A DNA stretch of 34,564 bases. Source: Desulfobacteraceae bacterium (GTDB lineage: Bacteria; Desulfobacterota; Desulfobacteria; Desulfobacterales; Desulfobacteraceae). How positions within the stretch are numbered: position 1 is the first letter of the stretch; every line of letters begins with the position of its first letter. Below the pieces are notes generated by a model. It was not told where the DNA came from and searched no databases. It saw only the letters and a list, made by a program, of their open reading frames with translations. Location of the stretch: assembly GCA_003353855.1 (NCBI GenBank), contig PIVS01000008.1, positions 1-34,564 of the forward strand, read 5' to 3'. The translations under genes were made by a program, and so were the position numbers. Positions 11,317 to 27,319 of the stretch are shown in pieces.

Positions 11317-12009
11317 TCAGTCGTCCACCTCGTATGCGTAAATAGTACAAGGCAGTGCATCGGAATCCTGAATGAATAATGGTGCAATAATGATCTTTTT
11401 AAAAATTGATTTTTCAGAACATTTTGTTAAGTCCATATCTTCAATCAATAATATTGGCTTATCTGGATTTAAAAATGCCCTATGTGCTATTCGTCCCAAT
11501 GGACGGTTTGAAAAGCTTGATACAGAAAGCGTATCAAATCCAAAAGCACGGACACTGGGGAAATGATATCGAATATAATCAGCCACTTCCTGGGTGAAAC
11601 CGTAATTTTCCAAAATCTGTTCTCTATTCTTGCGTTGATAACAGAAGCCTGTTTTAACTAAAATAATATCGACGTCCTCTTTATTCTCAATGTTCTCCAT
11701 TAATGCAGTCAGTTGATCTGAAATAATCTGTGATTCTGGTTTCAGGTCAATTAATACCGGGTTATTAAAATGCCAGGAGATCAGGTCAAAATCATTCCAT
11801 ACTTGACCGTTGGCATAAAAATGCCGGGGTAAATCGATGTGTGTGCCACTATGTACGGTCATTGATAGGTACGTATCGTTTGCAGGGTCACCAGCATTTA
11901 TATTGCTTGTCTTCGACAGCACAACTCTATTTCGATCGCCATAGGTTGGGGTATCACTCTCAATCGGATAGGATAACAATAACATGTTAGTGTCCATTCT
12001 CCCTTGCAT
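11317..12009 (-). CDS. Cyclase-family protein (kynurenine-formamidase-like metal hydrolase)
   Basis: 'LSMTVHSGTHIDLPRHFYANG' (HxGTHxDxPxH), 'FGFDTLSVSS'. Confidence 0.85.
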   Translation of the reverse strand: MQGRMDTNMLLLSYPIESDTPTYGDRNRVVLSKTSNINAGDPANDTYLSMTVHSGTHIDLPRHFYANGQVWNDFDLISWHFNNPVLIDLKPESQIISDQLTALMENIENKEDVDIILVKTGFCYQRKNREQILENYGFTQEVADYIRYHFPSVRAFGFDTLSVSSFSNRPLGRIAHRAFLNPDKPILLIEDMDLTKCSEKSIFKKIIIAPLFIQDSDALPCTIYAYEVDD

Positions 12010-12886
12010 GTATTTCTTTGATACACTCTAAAATGCCTTGTCCCATATCAGTGTAAGGATTGGGAACCAGTTTTTTAGATACACTGGGATGAAATGAATA
12101 AGGCGTGATTTTGTAATGATGATCATCAATCTCATTGTTTAAAATAATATCGACTTCATTATTCAGGATTTCTTTCACCATTGTAAATAATTCTATTCGT
12201 CTCATCCGTTCGATTCCTGTCAGTATCAAATTCAAACAATTATATTGTACATCTTCAATAATATCCACGGACAACTTGGCAGCATCGTTGGCATGAATGT
12301 ATTCCCGCACTTCCTCTCCATCTCTGTCATGCTCAATTTTTTTATTCAAGATTGCATCTCGGAGTATATTGTACAGATAATTATTACCGTACGCCCGTTC
12401 ACCATATACTGAACCATAACGTATGATTGTAAAATTCAATCCAAAAGCTCTGTAGTATTCTTCAATTAGCTTTTCTGACGCCAATTTGCTGATACCATAA
12501 AATGAGCCTTTATTGCTCAAAGCATATGTGCTGCTGGCATATACAAAACGATTTATTTTTTTATTTTTACAGGCCTCTAAAATATTTAAATTACCAATAA
12601 CATTAGACTCAATCGTTTCAACAGGTTTTGTAACCGCTTCATCAAGATTTGCAAGACCCGCAAAGTTGTACACAAAGTCAACATCACTTGTGACAGCTTT
12701 TGCCACTGATTCTCGATCCAGAACATCACAATACTGAAAAACTGACTTGGGAAGATAGTCTGATTGCTGAATATCTGCAGCAACTACCTCATACCCTCGC
12801 CGGCAAAGTTCATCTACAACATAACCGCCAAGAAAACCTGCTCCACCAAACACAACCGCTTTATTACTCATTACTAAAAACCTCAT
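11987..12886 (-). CDS. NAD-dependent epimerase/dehydratase (extended SDR)
   Basis: 'AVVFGGAGFLGGYVVDEL', 'VYASSTYALSNKGSFYGISKLASEKLIEEYYRAFGLNFTIIRYGSVYG'. Confidence 0.92.
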   Translation of the reverse strand: MRFLVMSNKAVVFGGAGFLGGYVVDELCRRGYEVVAADIQQSDYLPKSVFQYCDVLDRESVAKAVTSDVDFVYNFAGLANLDEAVTKPVETIESNVIGNLNILEACKNKKINRFVYASSTYALSNKGSFYGISKLASEKLIEEYYRAFGLNFTIIRYGSVYGERAYGNNYLYNILRDAILNKKIEHDRDGEEVREYIHANDAAKLSVDIIEDVQYNCLNLILTGIERMRRIELFTMVKEILNNEVDIILNNEIDDHHYKITPYSFHPSVSKKLVPNPYTDMGQGILECIKEIHARENGH

Positions 12887-13817
12887 TCTTCAATTGTTGC
12901 CCTTTATGAAAACGGATCACTTCCTCAACCGCTTCCACTTCCATTGCTGTCCTGGAATCCACAGTGCTGGCTCCCATATGACACGTTAGAATACAATTTT
13001 CAAGGGTTGTCAAAGGTCCGTTATAAGGTTCTTGTTCAAAAACATCGACAGCAGCACCAGCAATAATATTTTTGCGCAACGCAACACAAAGGTCTGCTTC
13101 ATTAACGATCCCGCCCCTTGCTGTATTGATCAACATTGATGTTGATTTCATCTGTTTTAATTCTGTTATTTTTATCAAATCATGAGTATCTTTTTTTAAT
13201 GGTACATTTATTGAGACGACATCGCTTTCTTTTAGCAATTGTTCTTTTGCCACAAAGGAAACATTATTTAATTTACCAAAGGATAAATCAGGATTGATAT
13301 CATTAACAAGTATTCTCATATTAAAAGCAGATAGCAAATGAACCAAGCCTTTCCCAATACGACCCATGCCTATAATACCAACAGTCTTTCCATAAAGAAG
13401 CATCCCCATATAGCGGTGCCATATGCCAGATTTAATGTTCGTGTTTGTCTCAGATATTTTTCGTGCAACATCAAGTATCAACCCAACGCATAGTTCAGAA
13501 ACTGCCATAGACGGAGCATCAGGGGTGTATGCCACTCGAACGCCAAATTCTTTACATAACTCAAAATCGATACCATCAAGCCCTATCCCGACCCTTGAGA
13601 TGATTTTTAAATTGGGAGCATTTTTAAACACATCGCGTGTGATTTTTTCTGTTCCTGCAATGAGAGCATCGGAAGATTTAATCTCGGATGCCAACTCCCC
13701 AGTGCTGATTTTGCGTTCATACGGGTTGTGACGCACCTGTAAATTTGCTTTTTTTAATAACTGTCCGGGAATTTCTGATGTTTGGGAGAAAGGATGGGTC
13801 GATACAAAAATATTCAT
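12864..13817 (-). CDS. D-2-hydroxyacid/phosphoglycerate dehydrogenase family
   Basis: 'SRVGIGLDGIDFELCKEFGVRVAYTPDAPSMAVSELCVGLIL', 'GKTVGIIGMGRIGKGLVHLL', 'LINTARGGIVNEADL'. Confidence 0.92.
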   Translation of the reverse strand: MNIFVSTHPFSQTSEIPGQLLKKANLQVRHNPYERKISTGELASEIKSSDALIAGTEKITRDVFKNAPNLKIISRVGIGLDGIDFELCKEFGVRVAYTPDAPSMAVSELCVGLILDVARKISETNTNIKSGIWHRYMGMLLYGKTVGIIGMGRIGKGLVHLLSAFNMRILVNDINPDLSFGKLNNVSFVAKEQLLKESDVVSINVPLKKDTHDLIKITELKQMKSTSMLINTARGGIVNEADLCVALRKNIIAGAAVDVFEQEPYNGPLTTLENCILTCHMGASTVDSRTAMEVEAVEEVIRFHKGQQLKNEVFSNE

Positions 13818-13822
13818 ATTAT

Positions 13823-14596
13823 TTATTCTCTTTTTAATTGTCGAGTTACTTTTTGCATTCCAGTGACAGCCGCATCCCGCATAAAAAAGTAGTCAATGCC
13901 ATATGCTAAAAAAGTGCACCCTTGAGCAATCTTCTCATTTAGCTTTACAGGGTCTGTATCTACAACATGAAAACCGGATGGAATATTGTGTTCGTTACAC
14001 TTATCCAGCACGGTTTGTATCATCTTTTGCACTTCTGGCCGTTGAAACTCTCCTGGGAATCCCATTGAACCAGATAAATCATAAGGACCAATAATAGTCG
14101 CATCAATACCTTCAGTTTTGACAATGGCATCAATATTTTTAACGGCTGTAATATGTTCAATTTGAACAATTATTACCAGCTCATCGTTCACCCATTTCTT
14201 GTATTCTTCAAACCCCATTCCATATTTTTGTGCCCGGAACAATCCAACGCCTCTCTCTCCTAATGGAGGATATTTGGCATAAGCTACCGCTTTTCTGGCA
14301 TCCTCTTCTGAACAAACCATGGGAACGATGATACCATCTGCTCCCATATCAAGAACTCGCTTGATTATAACTTCTTCATTTTTACTGACCCGCACTAAAG
14401 CTTTCATCCCTTTAGCCTGAATGGTGGCAATCAGTATCTGAGTTGTTTCCAAATCAATAGAGGTATGTTCAATATCAACAACCAACCACTCAAACCCTGC
14501 CAAAGCCAAAACTTCAACACAGACTGGATGTCCTATCATAATCCATGAGCCAATTGTCAATTCATTATTGCGCAATTTTTGTTTTAAATTGATCAT
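13823..14596 (-). CDS. HpcH/HpaI aldolase family protein
   Basis: 'GSWIMIGHPVCVEVLALAGFEWLVVDIEHTSIDLE', 'RVSKNEEVIIKRVLDMGADGIIVPMV', 'IVQIEHITAVKNIDAIVKTEGIDATIIGPYDLSGSMG'. Confidence 0.92.
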   Translation of the reverse strand: MINLKQKLRNNELTIGSWIMIGHPVCVEVLALAGFEWLVVDIEHTSIDLETTQILIATIQAKGMKALVRVSKNEEVIIKRVLDMGADGIIVPMVCSEEDARKAVAYAKYPPLGERGVGLFRAQKYGMGFEEYKKWVNDELVIIVQIEHITAVKNIDAIVKTEGIDATIIGPYDLSGSMGFPGEFQRPEVQKMIQTVLDKCNEHNIPSGFHVVDTDPVKLNEKIAQGCTFLAYGIDYFFMRDAAVTGMQKVTRQLKRE

Positions 14597-15270
14597 TTCT
14601 TTATCCTAAAATGTTTATACAGAAGTTCTGCCAATTCAAAATCTTCTGGTTCATCAATGTCAACTGCTTCCAATTTGTTCATCTCAAAAAGTTGAGGTTT
14701 TAAACCAATACGTTTCTGTCCTGCAGCTGCAAAGGATTTTTTAGAAAAAATATATAAATTGGAATTTTCTTCATACAAAGGAGCTAAATCCTGTGTCCGT
14801 ATCAGCTCTTGTGGGTTATGGTTAACTGGGTCGGCGTTTTTGTCATAGAGCCGAGTCTGTATTTTTGTTACAGAAAAAACAGAATTGTATTGTTTTAAAC
14901 CCGAAGAATAAGCGCAAATGGCATCATTTATGGTTTTTGAGCTTATCAGAGGGTTTGTGCTGTGTGTTTGCAGAAAATGAGTTCCATCTAATTGGCCCAG
15001 GTCATAATCGATAATATCATTCATCGAAACATAGTCACCTTGAATATCAACAGGACGATCAATAATCAACACGTGATTACCAAAAGATTTCATGGCATCA
15101 TTTTTTATAATCTCGCTGTCCGTATTAATAACCACCTTTTCAACTTGTTCAGATTCAATAAGAGCCTTCATAACAGCATGATATAAAGGTGCCCCATCAA
15201 AATCACGCATATTTTTATTGGGGACACGTTCGGAATTGCCTTTCATTGGTAAAAGGGCCGTTAGCTTCAT
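14593..15270 (-). CDS. Acylneuraminate cytidylyltransferase (NeuA-like) family
   Basis: 'LTALLPMKGNSERVPNKNMRDFDGAPLYHAVMKAL', 'THSTNPLISSKTINDAI', 'ELNKLEAVDIDEPEDFELAELL'-type C-terminus. Confidence 0.9.
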   Translation of the reverse strand: MKLTALLPMKGNSERVPNKNMRDFDGAPLYHAVMKALIESEQVEKVVINTDSEIIKNDAMKSFGNHVLIIDRPVDIQGDYVSMNDIIDYDLGQLDGTHFLQTHSTNPLISSKTINDAICAYSSGLKQYNSVFSVTKIQTRLYDKNADPVNHNPQELIRTQDLAPLYEENSNLYIFSKKSFAAAGQKRIGLKPQLFEMNKLEAVDIDEPEDFELAELLYKHFRIKK

Positions 15271-18250: not shown

Positions 18251-18748
18251 TTAAAAGCAATTCAAACTTTTTGGATTAATATAAAATTGTTTTACAAGGT
18301 TAGTAATATAATTCACTTCGTCTGCTTTTATTCCAAAGAATAACGGCAAGCGAATTAGCCGATCACTTTCGCTGCAAGTATATCTTTCATCACCATTAAA
18401 TCTCCCATATCTAAGACCAGCCTCACTATTGTGTAAAGGGACATAGTGAAAAACAGCATTAACCTCATTTTTGAAAAGATAATTTATTAGGGCTGACCTT
18501 TCGTTTATATCCTTGACTTTAATATAAAACATGTGTGCGTTAAAATTGCAATACTCTGGTATGACAGGAACACAAACCAAACCTTGTGTGGATAAAGCGT
18601 TTAAAGCTTTTTTGTAAAAATCCCAGCTTTTTAGGCGATTTTTATTAATTTTCTCCGCCTTTTTAAGTTGTCCATAAAGGTATGCCGCTTTCAATTAATT
18701 CGGTAAATAGCTACTTCCAATATCTACCTAGCTGTATTCATCAATTTT
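18251..18748 (-). pseudogene. Degraded WecE/RffA-like aminotransferase (DegT/DnrJ/EryC1), C-terminal part
   Basis: Frame reads KIDEYS*VDIGSSYLPN*LKAAYLYGQLKKAEKINKNRLKSWDFY...AHMFYIKVKDINERSALINYLFKNEVNAVFHYVPLH. Stops TAG at 18728-18730 and TAA at 18695-18697; no N-terminal catalytic half. Confidence 0.82.
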
Positions 18749-19383: not shown

Positions 19384-20036
19384 TTATTTCTCCGCAAAGA
19401 GGATTGATTTCTCTCCTGATATAAAATATGTACTTGTTATATTAGGGTCTTGTTCGATAACACTTACTTTTTTAAATCCTACAAACAAAAGGGTATCAAT
19501 CAGGGCTTTTCTATTCGGTCTCATTTCTAATAATTGGCGGATGTTGCCGCCAGTCAGCGTAACCTGATCTCTATTCATAAAATACCCGCCATTCCCCCGG
19601 AAACTTTCAGTAATCAACGGTGTATCACTTTCAATTACAGCATATTTATTTGTAATCTCATATAGATTTCTAAGAAATAAAACAGGGTTCTCCATGTGAT
19701 AGACAATCCCTAAACAAAAGCATAGGTCATACTTCTTTTTTATTGAAAACGCCCAATCAACATAGTCAAAATCAATCTTATATACATTTGTCTTTATATT
19801 CTTAAATGCATGAATGAGATTAATTATATCAATATTGACCTCATTTAACTCATATATGTCCATCTTTTTAAACCTTTAGCAAAATAATGATTTGCAACAA
19901 AACCTTCTGCTGCGGCTAAATCACATGCGCTCAATTTAGAATAATCAATGGAATTTTTCTTGAAATATAAATCAATGGCAGCAATCATTGCATCCACTCT
20001 TTTTGCATAAGCGCTGATATGGTTGACATTTGTCAA
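19384..20036 (-). pseudogene. Frameshifted class I SAM methyltransferase
   Basis: Two overlapping ORFs (19845-20036 and 19384-19863) give one protein: 'KLSACDLAAAEGFVANHYFAKGLKR | MDIYELNEVNIDI...YDLCFCLGIVYHMENPVLFLRNLYEI'; frame changes near an A-run at about 19850-19870. Confidence 0.7.
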
Positions 20037-20061
20037 GAAAAAATATTACCCCATGCCTTTT

Positions 20062-20265
20062 TTAAAATTCATTGCCAAAAAGCTTTTCATTCTTTGCAAT
20101 TTTATTGGTCTCGAAATACGGATTTTTTGTTTCCTCAACACGTGATAATAAACTGGAACCGTTAGACAAAACAAACTCTGATAATTTTCGAACTTTACAA
20201 TCCAATCCGAATTCATCACTTCGATAATAAGCATAGTCCTCTTTATCAAAGAAGGATATCGGTCT
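20062..20265 (-). pseudogene. ORF fragment without start codon, possibly the tail of the broken methyltransferase
   Basis: Frame reads RPISFFDKEDYAYYRSDEFGLDCKVRKLSEFVLSNGSSLLSRVEETKNPYFETNKIAKNEKLFGNEF*; missed by the ORF track, which reports another frame (20046-20249). Confidence 0.45.
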
Positions 20266-20843
20266 TTATCCCTTTTTCTGTAAATTTTGATGGTCTTTCA
20301 TTGAATTTAGATCATTCCAGCAATTGGTTCTCCAAATAAGTTCATGTATATCCTGAGGTTTTATTGCAACACCTGTTGAAACTTCACTTTTCATAATTAG
20401 AACGGAAAGTGGAATATGTTGAATCACACCAGTTGAAAGAACAAAATCAAAAGTCTGATCAGTAAAAACATTTAAAGTCGTTCCATCATTTTCTATTAGA
20501 GAAATATTGGGCATATCCCGTAAATAAATCTCAGCCTCTTTTAATATTTGATCTGAAATATCAACCCAGTTATAGACTTAACATAAATAGACAGCGGTTT
20601 CATGATTCGTCCCATCCCGCATCCAATCTCCAATAAATGGCCTTTGGACAGATCAAGTTTACTGTGGTGTGCAAAACGCTTTGCTAACCATGAAGCCAGT
20701 CTATTCCCATAAATTGCGAACTCAGCATCATTACTCGCATTGTTTTTTTCCAAAGTGACATATTCTTTCCCCGAGACATTTGCTCCAAAACTTTTAGAAT
20801 ATTCTTCTTTAAGCTGATCTTTAATTATCATATAAACCTCCAT
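20266..20843 (-). pseudogene. Frameshifted class I SAM methyltransferase
   Basis: 20541-20843 has 'HLLEIGCGMGRIMKPLSIYVKSITG'; one extra G restores 'VDISDQILKEAEIYLRDMPNISLIENDGTTLNVFTDQTFDFVLSTGVIQHIP' in 20266-20514. Confidence 0.75.
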
Positions 20844-20910: not shown

Positions 20911-22902
20911 TTATTTCACGAATAAATCATTATAAGAGGCACGTTTAAAAATCTCAAGCTTACCTCCGATAGTTGCATTATAAATTTTCTTGCCATTTTC
21001 TTCATAAACTTTTTTTGCAAATTCATAATTCAGCCCAACCCTCTCAACTTTAGGATCATGCCATTTTTTCCCTTTTCCAAAATAATCTGGATGAAAATGG
21101 TTCACATCATCTTCATTTGATATTAATGTAGCTCCACGAGCCTCATCTGACTCTCTGATTTTATAAGAGAAATCCATACCAATCAAATATACCTTAGTGA
21201 AACCCAAATAATACGCTAGCTGCATATTCATGTATGTAACAGATTGGCCTGCATAAACTACATTTGAGGCGTCTTTTGAAAACCTTGGTTTACAAAATGA
21301 TGGATGATCACCTCTATAAAAACCAAGATCTGCTGCAAAAAAAAATGTATTATCCGTATTCTGAATTTTGCTTTTATAAAGTGAAGGAAAAAATTTATAC
21401 TTGCAGTCGTAATCATTAATTTGCTCAAGATTATCATCAACAACATGCCCATCTTCAACCATATAAAATGTCGGTACAAATCCCATTTCATCAGTTTTAT
21501 AAAAAATACCATTAACCCCAAAGGTATACTCATTTTGAAGTAATGATAAGTCACATTTGTTTAGTGATGGTCCGTTACCTATAATAAAGCAGCGTTTCCC
21601 TTTAAACCTATTTTTCAAGGCTGATAATAAATTGCATTCTTCTTTTGAGATTGACATTGCAACATCAAGCATCGGTATGGTTTTGTCGTTTTCTTCAGTA
21701 GGCAACTTATTTGTTTCTGTTAATTTTTCTTTGAGAGTCACTCTATCTTTAGTATTATGTTTTTGAGTTAAAGCATTCACTATATATCTGACCAAAGTTC
21801 TTCGTCTACTGTTAACAGGTAAAATGAATTTTGTCAGGTTATAAAACATTTGAATTTTTCTGAATGCTCTCAATTCAAGTTCGCATAACATTAATTTGTT
21901 CCTACAGGTTTCAAGTTCTCTAATCAACTCTTTGTCCGTGACATCATTCCCCGCACTTTTTGAAGTCAAAATAAGATTATATTTAGTATACAATATAGGG
22001 TCGTACTCTTCTAACTTTTGCAAAGAATCTGTCGTATTATAGTTGTTTTTTTCTATGGCCTCTATAACCTTTTTTACTAACTTGGTTTTGTCAAAATTAG
22101 CATCATTAAATAGAAAAATACGATCAATTAATCCCAAGGTAAAATGAAAAACTCTACGTATAAATTCTTTTTTGTATTTTTTATACACCCCATTTTTATT
22201 TAAAAAAGACTTAGTCATTTCCAACGCGGAAAATATATCATTTACGTGTTTTTCCGATACACTTTTACTAATCGACCCATTTCGGCGGAGCCAAAAATAA
22301 AATACTTCTTCCACGACACTTAATTTTTTTGCATGATAAATTAATTGACATGTAATAGGAATGTCTTCGTGATAAAGGTTTAAAGGATATCTAATCTCGT
22401 TATCGATAAAAAGTGTTCGACGATATATCTTGTCGCAAGCCATTGTTGACATTTTTCCAGCCAGCACTCGTTTGAATATTTCACCTTTTGACAAACCTTT
22501 TTTTATACCAGAAGTATGAAAAACACTTCCTTTTTCACAAACCTGCTCATATCGACATATCACAATATCAGATTGTTCTGATATTGCTTCTGTATACATT
22601 CTCTTTGCCATATCTTTATGGATATAATCATCGCTATCTAAGAACATTAAAAATTCACCGATAGCGGCTTCAATACCAATATTTCTAGCCCCGGAAAGGC
22701 CTTGGTTCTCTTGTGTTATTATTTTTAAACATGGATTATTATATTTTTTCAGAATTTCCAAGCTCGTGTCTGTAGAACCATCATCAATTGCGATAATTTC
22801 AATTTTATCTAAACTCTGATTTAATGCAGAGTTTATACATGTATTGAGATGTTTTTCTGTGTTATATACAGGAATAATTATACTAATTTTTATTTCATGC
22901 AT
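20911..22902 (-). CDS. GT2 glycosyltransferase fused to DUF115 (Maf/MptE-like) domain
   Basis: 663 aa; N-terminus 'SIIIPVYNTEKHLNTCINSALNQSLDKIEIIAIDDGSTD...MFLDSDDYIH'; C-terminus 'KGKRCFIIGNGPSLNKCDLSLLQNEYTFGVNGIFY...AGQSVTYMNMQLAYYLGFTKVYLIGMDFSY'. Confidence 0.87.
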   Translation of the reverse strand: MHEIKISIIIPVYNTEKHLNTCINSALNQSLDKIEIIAIDDGSTDTSLEILKKYNNPCLKIITQENQGLSGARNIGIEAAIGEFLMFLDSDDYIHKDMAKRMYTEAISEQSDIVICRYEQVCEKGSVFHTSGIKKGLSKGEIFKRVLAGKMSTMACDKIYRRTLFIDNEIRYPLNLYHEDIPITCQLIYHAKKLSVVEEVFYFWLRRNGSISKSVSEKHVNDIFSALEMTKSFLNKNGVYKKYKKEFIRRVFHFTLGLIDRIFLFNDANFDKTKLVKKVIEAIEKNNYNTTDSLQKLEEYDPILYTKYNLILTSKSAGNDVTDKELIRELETCRNKLMLCELELRAFRKIQMFYNLTKFILPVNSRRRTLVRYIVNALTQKHNTKDRVTLKEKLTETNKLPTEENDKTIPMLDVAMSISKEECNLLSALKNRFKGKRCFIIGNGPSLNKCDLSLLQNEYTFGVNGIFYKTDEMGFVPTFYMVEDGHVVDDNLEQINDYDCKYKFFPSLYKSKIQNTDNTFFFAADLGFYRGDHPSFCKPRFSKDASNVVYAGQSVTYMNMQLAYYLGFTKVYLIGMDFSYKIRESDEARGATLISNEDDVNHFHPDYFGKGKKWHDPKVERVGLNYEFAKKVYEENGKKIYNATIGGKLEIFKRASYNDLFVK

Positions 22903-22903
22903 T

Positions 22904-24472
22904 TTATTTCATAACCTTTTTTAAATCCGATAGTTCATTGTTGAATAAATGAAATATTCTGTATGTATATGAGTTCTCTTTGTTTTCTATCCAGTTTAAA
23001 ATAGAAGAAATAGATTTGTTCTGTTTTTCTATTATTTTTTTAAAAGCGCGGATTTCATTGTCTCTGGTATCTATTCGAATGTTCTGTTTTTCTATTATTT
23101 TTTTAAAAGCGCGGATTTCATTGTCTCTGGTATCTATTCGAATATTCTGTTTTTCTATTGTTTTTTTAAAAGCGCGGATTTCATTGACTCTGGTATCTAT
23201 TCGAATGTTCTGTTTTTCTATTATTTTTTTAAAAGCGCGGATTTCATTGACTCTGGTATCTATTCGAATGTTCTCTTTTTCTATTATTTTTTTAAAAGCG
23301 CGGATTTCATTGACTCTGGTATCTATTCGAATGTTCTGTTTTTCTATTGTTTTTTTAAAAGCGCGGATTTCATTGTCTCTGGTATCTATTCGAATATTCT
23401 GTTTTTCTATTATTTTTTTAAAAGCGCGGATTTCATTGTCTCTGGTATCTATTCGAATATTCTTTTTTTCTATCATGTGCTTCATTCCCAGACCCAAAAA
23501 CTTTTTACTCAGCACCAATCTTTTTAAAAATGTCAATATTCTCTTATGGTTATCTTGATAATCTATAGTTCCAGAACCTTGCGGATCAGGAACAAAAACC
23601 GACTCAACAGTTTCATTAATCGAAATCTTGCAATACCCATTAAGTGACATTATTTTTTCCAATGAGTATGCATTAAAGTTATACATATGTGCATGAGTCA
23701 GATATTCTAAAAAATCAAAATTATATGTTGAAACAGTATTATTTCTTTCAATACCAGGAACTTCGATATAAAGTATCCCTCTGTTTTTGAGCAACGTTTT
23801 GATTTTTGAAAGCTCTGCCTCTAAATCTATAAAATGTTCAAAAACATGACTCAGAATAATTAAATCAAAAGTATCAGTCATATTTGCAATCGTATCTAAG
23901 TCGCCATGTATGACGTTAACCCCATTTTTTTCACAGAGAGATAAACAGTCATGACTGTATTCAGTCCCCAATTCATCAATCTCAATGTTATGTAGTAACG
24001 CTTCGTTTTTAAATTCACGCAATACACTGCCAGTACCTGCTCCAATTTCTAGAATCGTCCATTTCTTTTTTTTAGGCAAACTGTGATTGACAATTTCGAA
24101 TATTTTTTTTCCTTGTCCAACCTGAAAAAGGGCTTGTAATCCATCTAACCTTTCTTTCCCGTAATTTAAAGGGTGATAAAAGTTTTCATAATAGTAAGGC
24201 AGTGACTCCTGTTTAATACGAGGATTAGTCAGAACAAGCCCACAATTTTTACAAATCAAACTTCCGAAAGGCAAGCCATAACGATCAATCTTTGTTAATT
24301 GTTCTAAATTAGTACTTCCGCATTTACAGACCGATATTTTTTCAATTTTAATCTTATCTTCATCAAGCTCCCGAATGAGTAAATCCTTGTGTTTTTTCGC
24401 AATATCATTCAGTTTGCGAGGTGTGACATCATCACGTAGCAATTCATCTCGATAGTGACTAAGAGAGTTCAT
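22904..24472 (-). CDS. SAM methyltransferase with N-terminal Cys4 motif and C-terminal 21-aa coiled-coil-like repeats
   Basis: 'CKCGSTN...GSLICKNCGLVLTNP' ; 'WTILEIGAGTGSVLREF', 'FDLIILSHVFEHFIDLEAEL'; then seven IIEKQNIRIDTRDNEIRAFKK units. Confidence 0.9.
   Translation of the reverse strand: MNSLSHYRDELLRDDVTPRKLNDIAKKHKDLLIRELDEDKIKIEKISVCKCGSTNLEQLTKIDRYGLPFGSLICKNCGLVLTNPRIKQESLPYYYENFYHPLNYGKERLDGLQALFQVGQGKKIFEIVNHSLPKKKKWTILEIGAGTGSVLREFKNEALLHNIEIDELGTEYSHDCLSLCEKNGVNVIHGDLDTIANMTDTFDLIILSHVFEHFIDLEAELSKIKTLLKNRGILYIEVPGIERNNTVSTYNFDFLEYLTHAHMYNFNAYSLEKIMSLNGYCKISINETVESVFVPDPQGSGTIDYQDNHKRILTFLKRLVLSKKFLGLGMKHMIEKKNIRIDTRDNEIRAFKKIIEKQNIRIDTRDNEIRAFKKTIEKQNIRIDTRVNEIRAFKKIIEKENIRIDTRVNEIRAFKKIIEKQNIRIDTRVNEIRAFKKTIEKQNIRIDTRDNEIRAFKKIIEKQNIRIDTRDNEIRAFKKIIEKQNKSISSILNWIENKENSYTYRIFHLFNNELSDLKKVMK
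23021..23461. repeat. Seven tandem 63-bp repeats inside the methyltransferase gene
   Basis: Unit ctgtttttctattatttttttaaaagcgcggatttcattgtctctggtatctattcgaatgtt; 441 bp separates equivalent positions 23021 and 23462; a few substitutions between copies. Confidence 0.95.
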
Positions 24473-26507
24473 ATCTTTTCATTCCATCTTTTGGCATAAC
24501 GATCAGGTCACACCATCCACGCCTATTTTTATTATGCTTTTGTAAGTATTCTACAAACCTATCAATATCTGATAGGTTGAGCCTGTTCTTAAACAGGTAC
24601 TTAATTGAATCTCCAATAAATCTTGGCCTCAGTGGTAATTCCGCCACAGCAAAGTTTTCTATGAGAAACTGTAAAAAATCTAAAGGATTTGTTCCTTGGG
24701 ATTTTAACCAGTGCGGAGCGAATTCTGTTTTTATAAACCAGTTGGAATTCGAGCTTAAAAATTTTAGTCCGCCTTCAAAAACTTGCTTCTCATATCCCTG
24801 TGTGTCAATCTTAATAAAATAGAACTCACAGTTAGCATCGGCTAATAATTTATCCAGAGTTACAGTAGTTGCTTGGATAATTTTCCACCCCTCATTCTCT
24901 CCAAGGACTCTATTATCTTGACTTCCTAGTGGATTTAACGCAAAATTTCGATCTAAATCAGGTTTCTCAGCACAGATAGCATTAATTATTTCATACTCGT
25001 TAATTTTATTTTGTTGAATATTCATCGCTATATATTCACATAATGATGGACATGGTTCTACTAAAGTTAAATGTGCATTAGGAAACTTTTTTTTAAAGAC
25101 AATCCCCGTATATCCATAATTTGCGCCGATATCAATTATTGCATCTGGATTAAATCGCTTTTTTATATCGTTATATAAAGTGTTATTAAGCTCTTCGTAA
25201 GAAGATTTTCCATCATACATTTTCCCACCAGAATCATTGCTGTCAATGGTGAGCTTGACATCGTCGAACATGTAAGTCTTATCAGATTTAATAGACTTCC
25301 CTTCCCAAGCATGCTTCAATGTCACATATCCAAAAAAACGGCTATTGTTATTTATAACATCTAAATGCTTTGTGCATCCTCGGTAAAGACATTCAGCACC
25401 ATCATTTATTGCCACCACAGTATTATAAGTTTCTGGATTCAGTATGTTTGTATGTTTAAAAAGAATCTCATAACGATTATCAGCCAAAGGAATCAGTTTA
25501 ACCTTGTCTATATCTGTTGCAATACCTGAAATATATTCTTCCTTGCTGTTCCAGATTGGCAATCCAACAATCAAATTTTTAGGTGAATACGATAGTTGAA
25601 AAGAGATTGAGAGGGCAATATCATCTCCAGTATGGCTTTGAGTGATCCTTTTTCCTGAATTGTTTATCCAAAAATGTGATATATTGCTGACTACATTTTT
25701 ATTATGAAAAAGGTTTCCATAAAAAGGTGTCGATGGTTTATGACTCAATTGATTGACACCCCGTTGCTTTTTTTTCAGCTCTCCTTGCTCTAAATATAAC
25801 TTAATCGCATCATCCGGAATTCCATCATACACAATACTGCCCTTATTAAGCACAAGAGCTCTGTCACAAAATAGTCTGACACTGTTCATAGAATGCGAAA
25901 CAAACACAACCGACATTGATTTTCGCATAGATTTTATTTTAGACAAACATTTTTGTTGAAAAACAAAATCACCGACAGCAAGAACTTCATCTAAAAGCAA
26001 AATATCAGGTTCAATCGACGTTACAATGCCAAACCCTAAACGAGATTTCATACCACTACTGTATGTTTTGACTGGTTGATTGATAAAATTATTTAACTCA
26101 GCAAACTCAATAACCTTCTCAGTTCTTTTTCTAATTTCATTGCCTTTATAGCCATTTATTTTTAGGTTCAGCCTAATGTTTTCCATTCCAGTAAGCTCAG
26201 CCTTGAGTCCTGATGTCACTTCTAAGATAGCTGCAATCCTTCCTTTTGTATTTACGCTGCCACGTGTTGGCGTTAATACTCCAGCAATAATCTTTAGAAG
26301 GGTCGATTTACCATCACCATTACGCCCAATTATCCCTAACGCCTCTCCTTTCTTTAGAGTTAAGGATGCATTAGAAAGAGCCTTGAATTCTTTATGATAT
26401 TTTTTTTTGAACGGGCTAAATACTTCCTTGACCCTATCTGTATTTTTTTTGTATAATTTGTATATCTTTGTGATATGCTTGGCTTCGACAACGACACTTT
26501 TACTCAT
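24459..26507 (-). CDS. wzt: Wzt-like ABC exporter ATPase with Wzt C-terminal domain fused to FkbM methyltransferase
   Basis: 682 aa; Walker A 'GIIGRNGDGKSTLLKII', 'YSSGM', 'ILLLDEVLAVGD'; middle 'GDDIALSISFQLSYSPKNLIVGLPIWN...' Wzt_C-like; C-terminus 'AIIDIGANYGYTGIVFKKKFPNAHLTLVEPCP...YFIKIDTQGYEKQVFEGGLKFL' FkbM. Confidence 0.93.
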   Translation of the reverse strand: MSKSVVVEAKHITKIYKLYKKNTDRVKEVFSPFKKKYHKEFKALSNASLTLKKGEALGIIGRNGDGKSTLLKIIAGVLTPTRGSVNTKGRIAAILEVTSGLKAELTGMENIRLNLKINGYKGNEIRKRTEKVIEFAELNNFINQPVKTYSSGMKSRLGFGIVTSIEPDILLLDEVLAVGDFVFQQKCLSKIKSMRKSMSVVFVSHSMNSVRLFCDRALVLNKGSIVYDGIPDDAIKLYLEQGELKKKQRGVNQLSHKPSTPFYGNLFHNKNVVSNISHFWINNSGKRITQSHTGDDIALSISFQLSYSPKNLIVGLPIWNSKEEYISGIATDIDKVKLIPLADNRYEILFKHTNILNPETYNTVVAINDGAECLYRGCTKHLDVINNNSRFFGYVTLKHAWEGKSIKSDKTYMFDDVKLTIDSNDSGGKMYDGKSSYEELNNTLYNDIKKRFNPDAIIDIGANYGYTGIVFKKKFPNAHLTLVEPCPSLCEYIAMNIQQNKINEYEIINAICAEKPDLDRNFALNPLGSQDNRVLGENEGWKIIQATTVTLDKLLADANCEFYFIKIDTQGYEKQVFEGGLKFLSSNSNWFIKTEFAPHWLKSQGTNPLDFLQFLIENFAVAELPLRPRFIGDSIKYLFKNRLNLSDIDRFVEYLQKHNKNRRGWCDLIVMPKDGMKRYELS

Positions 26508-27319
26508 TACAATACATCCCCGAAATGCGGTTTCAGACGCTTAAACGTAATGGCACCCACTAATAAAATAAAGACTGTAATTCCTAAAAAATAAAAGGCT
26601 TGCATGGGTTCCTCCCAAAACCATCTTTTATATAAAAAAGTATTACGATATCCTTCAATAATATATACCATTGGGTTTAACCGCATTAAATGCATATACT
26701 TCTCAGGCACTTTTTCTATTGACCAAAAGATGGGGGTAACCCAAAAGCCTAACTGCAAAATTACACCGATTAATTGAGCCATATCTTTGATAAAAACTCT
26801 TAAAGGAGACAACAACCAACCTGTGCCTATAAGTAAGATAGAAATCAAAAATAAATAGAAAGGTAGTTGTAGCCAGTAAATGTTGGGATAATAACCATGA
26901 GCGATGAGTATTACAAAATAAATCATCAAAAAAATGAAATGCAAAAACAATGTGGAACTAACCTTCACTATCGGAAGAATACTTACTCTAAACGCCACTT
27001 TTTTCACCAAGTAGCTATTACTAATTACAGAATTCATTCCGCCAAGAACAGCTTCAGAAAAGAAAAACCAGGGGATATATCCTCCCATTAAATATAGAAT
27101 AAAAGGAATGCCATTTGTTTCAACACGCTTAAACCCTACTGAGAACACGAAGTACACAGTAATGATAAAAATCAATGGGCGTAAAACCGCCCATACCAAT
27201 CCCAGGTAAGAACCTAGATATTGGCTTTTAAAGTCATCATATGCAAGGGTAAAAAGTAAACTTCTATTTTGATAAATATGCTTGATAAATCTTAAGAATT
27301 CTTTTGCAATTCGGAACAA
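26507..27319 (-). CDS. wzm: ABC-2 type polysaccharide export permease (Wzm)
   Basis: 270 aa multi-TM; 'YLGSYLGLVWAVLRPLIFIITVYFVFSVGF', 'YIIEGYRNTFLY'; overlaps wzt start. Confidence 0.93.
   Translation of the reverse strand: MFRIAKEFLRFIKHIYQNRSLLFTLAYDDFKSQYLGSYLGLVWAVLRPLIFIITVYFVFSVGFKRVETNGIPFILYLMGGYIPWFFFSEAVLGGMNSVISNSYLVKKVAFRVSILPIVKVSSTLFLHFIFLMIYFVILIAHGYYPNIYWLQLPFYLFLISILLIGTGWLLSPLRVFIKDMAQLIGVILQLGFWVTPIFWSIEKVPEKYMHLMRLNPMVYIIEGYRNTFLYKRWFWEEPMQAFYFLGITVFILLVGAITFKRLKPHFGDVL

Follow-up and report, generated by a model that had tools for sequence, protein, structure and literature searches.

The locus

The stretch of DNA analysed here, referred to as the window, comprises 34,564 nucleotides from a Desulfobacteraceae bacterium and contains, at exactly 22904-24472 on the minus strand, an open reading frame of 522 aa that encodes a sugar-type SAM methyltransferase followed by a repeat-built coil (Table 1). 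The wzt and wzm genes lie directly upstream of it and the gene for a GT2/MptE-like fusion lies downstream. The Wzt_C domain (PF14524) of Wzt barely passes its cut-off, with 30.5 bits against 30.4, and is adjoined by a FkbM match at residues 459-615 (E 7.4e-13). This fusion is found only in the window, in OB14 of the same genus and in the Campylobacterota locus L010, while the Wzt proteins of L007, L009 and L011 are about 404 aa long and carry no FkbM domain. The order wzm-wzt-methyltransferase/coil-GT2 is kept in the window, in OB14 and in the Campylobacterota loci L007, L009, L010 and L011, L008 being a partial contig, and E. coli O9a (strain HS), O8 and O99 have the same order, wzm-wzt-wbdD-polymerase. 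The placement beside wzt and wzm, in the terminator position, that had been claimed from the sequence alone is thus borne out, and two traits of the coiled-coil terminator class are present: a catalytic head with an extended coil, alongside wzm, a Wzt_C-bearing wzt and glycosyltransferases.

Table 1. Positions of the methyltransferase/coil gene, its parts and its neighbours in the window
Feature	Position	Strand	Basis
Wzm: ABC-2 permease	26507..27319	-	PF01061
Wzt: ABC ATPase, C-terminal carbohydrate-binding domain of Wzt type and, fused behind it, a FkbM methyltransferase	24459..26507	-	Pfam PF00005, PF14524, PF05050
Methyltransferase/coiled-coil protein, 522 aa; candidate chain terminator and ruler	22904..24472	-	ORF, PF13489, AF2 model
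Cys pattern C49-x-C51 ... C74-x2-C77	24242..24328	-	four Cys invariant in six relatives; Foldseek
SAM methyltransferase domain, residues 126-280	23633..24097	-	Pfam Methyltransf_23 PF13489, E 1.8e-15
Single continuous helix (predicted), residues 326-521	22910..23497	-	AlphaFold2
Array, seven 63-bp units (21 aa, three heptads each)	23036..23476	-	TRF 96%, unit alignment
Unit 1	23414-23476	-	unit register
Unit 7	23036-23098	-	unit register
Eighth unit, truncated and diverged (IIEKQNKSIS...), running into the non-repeated C-terminus	22973..23035	-	sequence
Fusion of a GT2 glycosyltransferase with an MptE-like domain, in the place that the polymerase gene has in E. coli O9a	20911..22902	-	PF00535, PF01973, conserved neighbour

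Other genes of the window, all on the minus strand, were also noted. Two short open reading frames at 19384-20843 (100 and 159 aa) match both ends of an intact 560-aa methyltransferase frame in OB14 (L006:6191-7870), so that the window has a broken, or mis-sequenced, copy of this gene. A DegT/DnrJ aminotransferase at 18251-18694 is open for its C-terminal 147 aa only (profile positions 225-359 of 360) and is likely a broken gene. Consecutive cytidylyltransferase, HpcH/HpaI aldolase, 2-hydroxyacid dehydrogenase, epimerase and cyclase genes at 11317-15270, the first three of which are also consecutive in L011, perhaps serve to make an unusual, CMP-activated sugar acid.

The repeat array

TRF reports the array as 63 bp x 7.3 copies at 23017-23473 (96% match, score 844) and finds just one other array in the window, with a score of 51. 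When the seven units are aligned, pairs differ at 1-5 of 63 bases and 5 of the 63 sites vary; one of the variable sites is synonymous and the rest alter residues 1, 5 and 13. The open reading frame, TRF, the unit alignment and Pfam together confirm the seven near-identical 63-bp repeats behind a SAM methyltransferase described in the sequence-only reading. That reading had also spoken of seven copies of one 21-aa unit, which stands as regards near identity and the three heptads; since MIEKK opens the first unit and D13V is found in three, the seven copies are not identical and IIEKQNIRIDTRDNEIRAFKK is their consensus. An antisense frame at 22980-23558 on the plus strand mirrors the repeats and was rejected as a gene.

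Head and tail of the protein

The top Foldseek matches to the head, and its nearest solved folds, are the Zn-domain sugar C3-methyltransferases MtmC, KijD1 and TcaB9, at about 15-18% identity, and the cysteine pattern appears to be of the zinc-ribbon kind that sugar C-methyltransferases have in their N-terminal domain. In the AlphaFold2 model, a monomer prediction from an alignment of seven sequences, the head is folded, with a pLDDT of mostly 80-93 in the core blocks and low values at 242-259 and 299-337. Unlike the Zn-domain C-methyltransferases, the modelled protein lacks the C-terminal Rossmann-like third domain and its SAM domain passes into one helix; on our reading, the coil takes the place of the third domain of the MtmC/KijD1/TcaB9 type.

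The tail is predicted to be that single helix, with a pLDDT of 64-84 in the repeat blocks and about 50 at the C-terminus, and its approximately 196 residues (326-521) would extend over about 290 Å if helical throughout. Isoleucine occupies the a-position in 24/24 heptads over units 1-8, and the level of the 3.5-residue periodicity was reached in 0/2000 shuffles. The expectation of a helical coiled coil therefore holds for the predicted tail, and a non-helical repeat, which would have counted against the sequence-only reading, was not predicted. The d-positions cycle through Q/R/F and are mostly polar, so that the stability and the oligomeric state of the coiled coil are uncertain. The sole sequence match of the tail in the PDB is the gp26 tail-needle coiled coil (4lin). 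Neither a WbdD-type C-terminal recruitment region nor a clear membrane helix was found.

Copy number among relatives

The OB14 orthologue has about 2-3 diverged units against seven in the window, and the DNA flanking the array is 92% identical between the two on one side and 85% on the opposite side. This indicates that the array of the window expanded, or was homogenised, once the two lineages had separated. The Campylobacterota loci L008 and L009 differ by one mismatch over approximately 3.2 kb, yet L008 has two exact 84-bp (28-aa) units and L009 one; these are contigs of 3.2 and 4.5 kb from metagenome-assembled genomes (MAGs), binned to different taxa, and given the small size of the contigs and their differing bins the two may stem from one population. 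As the sequence-only reading had supposed, close relatives differ in copy number by whole units that keep the frame, in both pairs, and the unit count is not invariant. Units are 21 aa in the window, OB14, L007 and L011, 28 aa in L008 and 14 aa in L010, all multiples of the heptad, and irregular partial units also occur in OB14 and L007.

Among 144 kin genomes, only OB14 besides the window has a coil-bearing orthologue, with the coil-less G108 in addition, and 398 Campylobacterota genomes gave two relatives only, both already in the set. The viral contigs gave weak methyltransferase matches only and the plasmid collection gave no matches.

Coil arrays at other Wzt loci of Desulfobacterota

A sample of 100 stretches around Wzt_C matches in Desulfobacterota was compared with 40 random stretches from the same genome set, on which the background rate rests. 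Polysaccharide enzymes with in-frame coil arrays of near-identical units were present in 10/100 Wzt stretches and 0/40 controls (Fisher one-sided p = 0.03), and 9/10 arrays have periods in multiples of 7 (binomial p 2e-7), both p-values being descriptive only because the arrays were classified by eye after being seen. The array-bearing loci are L018, L023, L024, L025, L029, L033, L036, L065, L066 and L076, with periods of 13, 14, 14, 42, 14, 14, 35, 14, 63 and 14 aa, respectively. The heads of these proteins span several methyltransferase families and GT4 enzymes, from which it follows that the repeat-coil feature arose repeatedly. A search with the L033 family gave one 56% match, without an array, and a search with the L036 family gave none.

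Several particulars of these loci deserve mention. The FkbM/coil gene at L065:8190-9502 carries a 42 bp x 4.8 array (97%) whose coil frame differs from the FkbM frame, which suggests a frameshift or a sequence error at the array. L018, L024 and L036 have the reversed order DUF4214-coil-methyltransferase, with a C-terminal methyltransferase that is O8-WbdD-like. The motif S-W-[RK]-x-T-x-x-[LV]-R follows the coil in L022, L025, L029, L033, L065, L071, L083 and L187-L191, in methyltransferases, glycosyltransferases and one sulfotransferase-like protein; it resembles SRSWRMTKGYR of WbdD and is possibly a shared membrane or partner site.

Coil duplications in WbdD and group 3 capsule proteins

A link to the CHARACTERISED rulers is provided by L025, which is homologous to E. 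coli O8 WbdD over its full length (34%, E 6e-92) and whose coil contains an exact 42-aa duplication. TRF finds no tandem array in wbdD of E. coli O8, O9a or O99, and the length of wbdD is constant among the full-length matches listed for O9/O9a (48/48, the best 48 of 210 full-cover genomes) and among the matches listed for O8 (39/39, the best 39 of 302 genomes) and O99 (14/14). Plasticity of ruler length is therefore not universal, these E. coli rulers being nearly length-constant. An O8 WbdD allele on IncX5 plasmids (WP_064179390.1) nevertheless carries an exact 156-bp (52-aa) coil duplication, which is not a heptad multiple and is present in only 1/302 E. coli genomes with the O8 sequence (by places per record). 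Its carriers are Serratia marcescens NZ_CP020505.1 and E. coli ECONIH4 NZ_CP026400.1, and the wzm and wzt genes beside it have the same protein accessions as chromosomal O8; the two stretches (L179 and L182) are conjugative IncX5 plasmids with an O8 O-antigen export and synthesis cluster.

The head of the E. coli group 3B capsule methyltransferase shares 51% identity with L033. In strain ET350 the coil of this enzyme contains an exact duplication of 231 bp (77 aa, 11 heptads); four other group 3B clusters are without it and have an imperfect 96-bp (32-aa) pair instead. The records of both the O8 plasmid and the group 3B duplications are listed as complete. No group 3 methyltransferase/coil gene was found in the H10407 regions or the K11 plasmid, and the E. 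coli loci H55, H49 and H117 were set aside as IS-truncated wbdD remnants or another O-type. Two Pseudosulfitobacter plasmid records examined have no coil array, and in 30/30 records counted the match to the Pseudosulfitobacter methyltransferase gene covers 80% or more of its length. A separate observation concerns the Campylobacter plasmid p16187MP2 (L181:1-499), where perfect 42-bp x 5.7 and 32-bp x 4.9 arrays, probably iterons, lie upstream of the replication gene.

Comparison with known chain terminators

The window protein resembles WbdD of E. coli O9a/O8 and K. pneumoniae O3/O5 in its methyltransferase head and long coiled-coil tail, in the location of its gene between wzt and the polymerase gene, in the carbohydrate-binding domain of the accompanying Wzt and in its proposed role as terminator and ruler. 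Nevertheless, it has no significant sequence similarity to O9a WbdD (BLASTP against the HS protein, best E 0.26) and is absent among the O8 WbdD matches at E 1e-12; judged by sequence, it is not a member of the WbdD family, in line with the original proposal of an unrelated or divergent ruler. It differs further in lacking the kinase, the C-terminal recruitment region and the SRSWRxT motif, which L025 has, and in that its coil is a near-perfect tandem array, unlike that of O9a, O8 or O99 WbdD. A trimeric rod is a further trait of WbdD; the model of the window rod covers a single chain.

Insertions into the coil lengthen O9a chains and truncations shorten them (review PMC5082667), and a methyltransferase/coil protein of E. 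coli O101/O162 has been proposed as a ruler (PMC13168486). The part of PMC11231755 drawn on here describes coiled-coil terminators as widespread and coil proteins as a marker of this assembly strategy, and the K. pneumoniae O4, O7 and O12 terminators treated there resemble the window protein in having, at ABC-dependent loci, a terminator module set off from the polymerase modules by a coil; their heads are Kdo transferases or methyltransferase-kinases, and tandem repeats are not mentioned in that part. The group 3 capsule methyltransferases of E. coli likewise have a coil whose length varies naturally (PMC13171606), the exact 77-aa duplication shown here included, but they belong to another family, that of the L033 homologues, and to a kps capsule rather than a Wzt_C context. 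Rulers made of coils, and coils of varying length in E. coli capsule enzymes, are thus already published, while an expansion mechanism by tandem units was, provisionally, not found described in the open-licence literature, where a search on WbdD with tandem repeats or duplication likewise found nothing relevant. What is new is that tandem units, usually of whole heptads, encode the length of the rod, that they change from one close relative to another, and that unrelated terminators, those of E. coli among them, show the same.

Discussion

It is probable that the window protein is a chain-terminating methyltransferase on a repeat-built ruler rod, WbdD-class in function. The array, the predicted helix with its heptad pattern, the shared gene order and the differing unit numbers of relatives speak for this reading, as do the coil duplications of L025, the O8 plasmid allele and the E. 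coli capsule methyltransferase. As a terminating sugar methyltransferase of a Wzm/Wzt ABC-transporter polysaccharide system, it would carry its head at the end of a parallel, and we infer oligomeric, coiled-coil rod that serves as a molecular ruler, such that the growing lipid-linked glycan would be methylated only once it is long enough to reach the catalytic head. The methylated end would then be recognised by the carbohydrate-binding domain of Wzt and exported. Slippage or unequal recombination may add or remove whole 63-bp units, each of which would shift the head by about 31 Å (21 x 1.5 Å) while the frame and the heptad register are kept.

Several observations count against the terminator reading: the nearest folds are those of nucleotide-sugar C-methyltransferases, which act before polymerisation; Wzt has a FkbM methyltransferase of its own as another possible cap enzyme; neither the recruitment region of WbdD nor a clear membrane helix was found; the d-positions are mostly polar; and the E. 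coli O9/O9a, O8 and O99 rulers hardly vary in length. The protein may instead be a sugar C- or O-methyltransferase acting on the nucleotide sugar or within each repeat unit, with a coil that merely oligomerises it or tethers it to the membrane or the polymerase complex and whose length is near-neutral. Such a role, which we consider unlikely, would suit the dTDP-sugar C3-methyltransferases MtmC, KijD1 and TcaB9 as nearest solved folds, the existence of a relative without a coil (L004/G108, 350 aa) and the expectation of the authors who described coil-length variation in the group 3 capsule enzymes that it is not critical (PMC13171606). However, the coil is present in all relatives adjoining wzm/wzt, and the stretch fetched around the coil-less relative holds no Wzm or Wzt homologue; furthermore, the unit lengths among relatives of the window protein remain heptad multiples, which argues that the rod is under selection to stay a rod, and in the characterised analogue coil length sets chain length (PMC5082667).

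If the Wzt-fused FkbM methyltransferase were the capping enzyme, coupled to the carbohydrate-binding domain, the coil protein would be a scaffold of the polymerase complex. The adjacency of FkbM to Wzt_C, in a fusion shared with OB14 and L010, is consistent with this, but L007, L009 and L011 retain the coil protein where FkbM is missing, making the coil protein the more constant part and the scaffold role improbable. It is also highly improbable that the repeat number reflects an assembly artefact or a duplicated region that drifts slowly and neutrally and does not vary today. Metagenome-assembled genomes are indeed among the Desulfobacterota and Campylobacterota loci used, the short contigs L008 and L009 with their differing bins included. 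Nevertheless, the longest exact repeat within the window array is 67 bp, which 150-bp reads resolve, so that short-read assembly is unlikely to have distorted the count of seven units; a single exact unit separates L008 from L009, whose DNA is otherwise identical; and the O8 plasmid and group 3B duplications lie in complete records.

Beyond the preferred reading of the window protein as a terminator and ruler, it is tentatively suggested that coil rulers across phyla are a repeat-encoded, evolvable device for setting the length of surface polysaccharides, in which tandem units, usually of whole heptads, expand and contract far faster than the rest of the gene and so change polysaccharide length in reversible and heritable steps. 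On the same tentative footing, repeat-encoded rulers could be compared to contingency loci, acting in an analogue manner rather than on/off. Rapid switching of copy number within one population is possible.

Protection of the cell surface, sensitivity to phages and recognition by the immune system all depend on the chain length of O-antigens and capsules. To our knowledge, the ruler principle is known but not how natural lengths arise and change, and the in-frame duplication of coil units is a mechanism for natural length change that is suggested by the DNA itself. Pairs of natural alleles with hardly any difference other than the length of the rod, such as O8 WbdD with and without the 52-aa duplication or L008 and L009, make the evolution of rulers directly testable and changes in chain length predictable from sequence. 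If the mechanism is true, a change in the number of repeats may be how bacteria adjust the length of their surface sugar chains.
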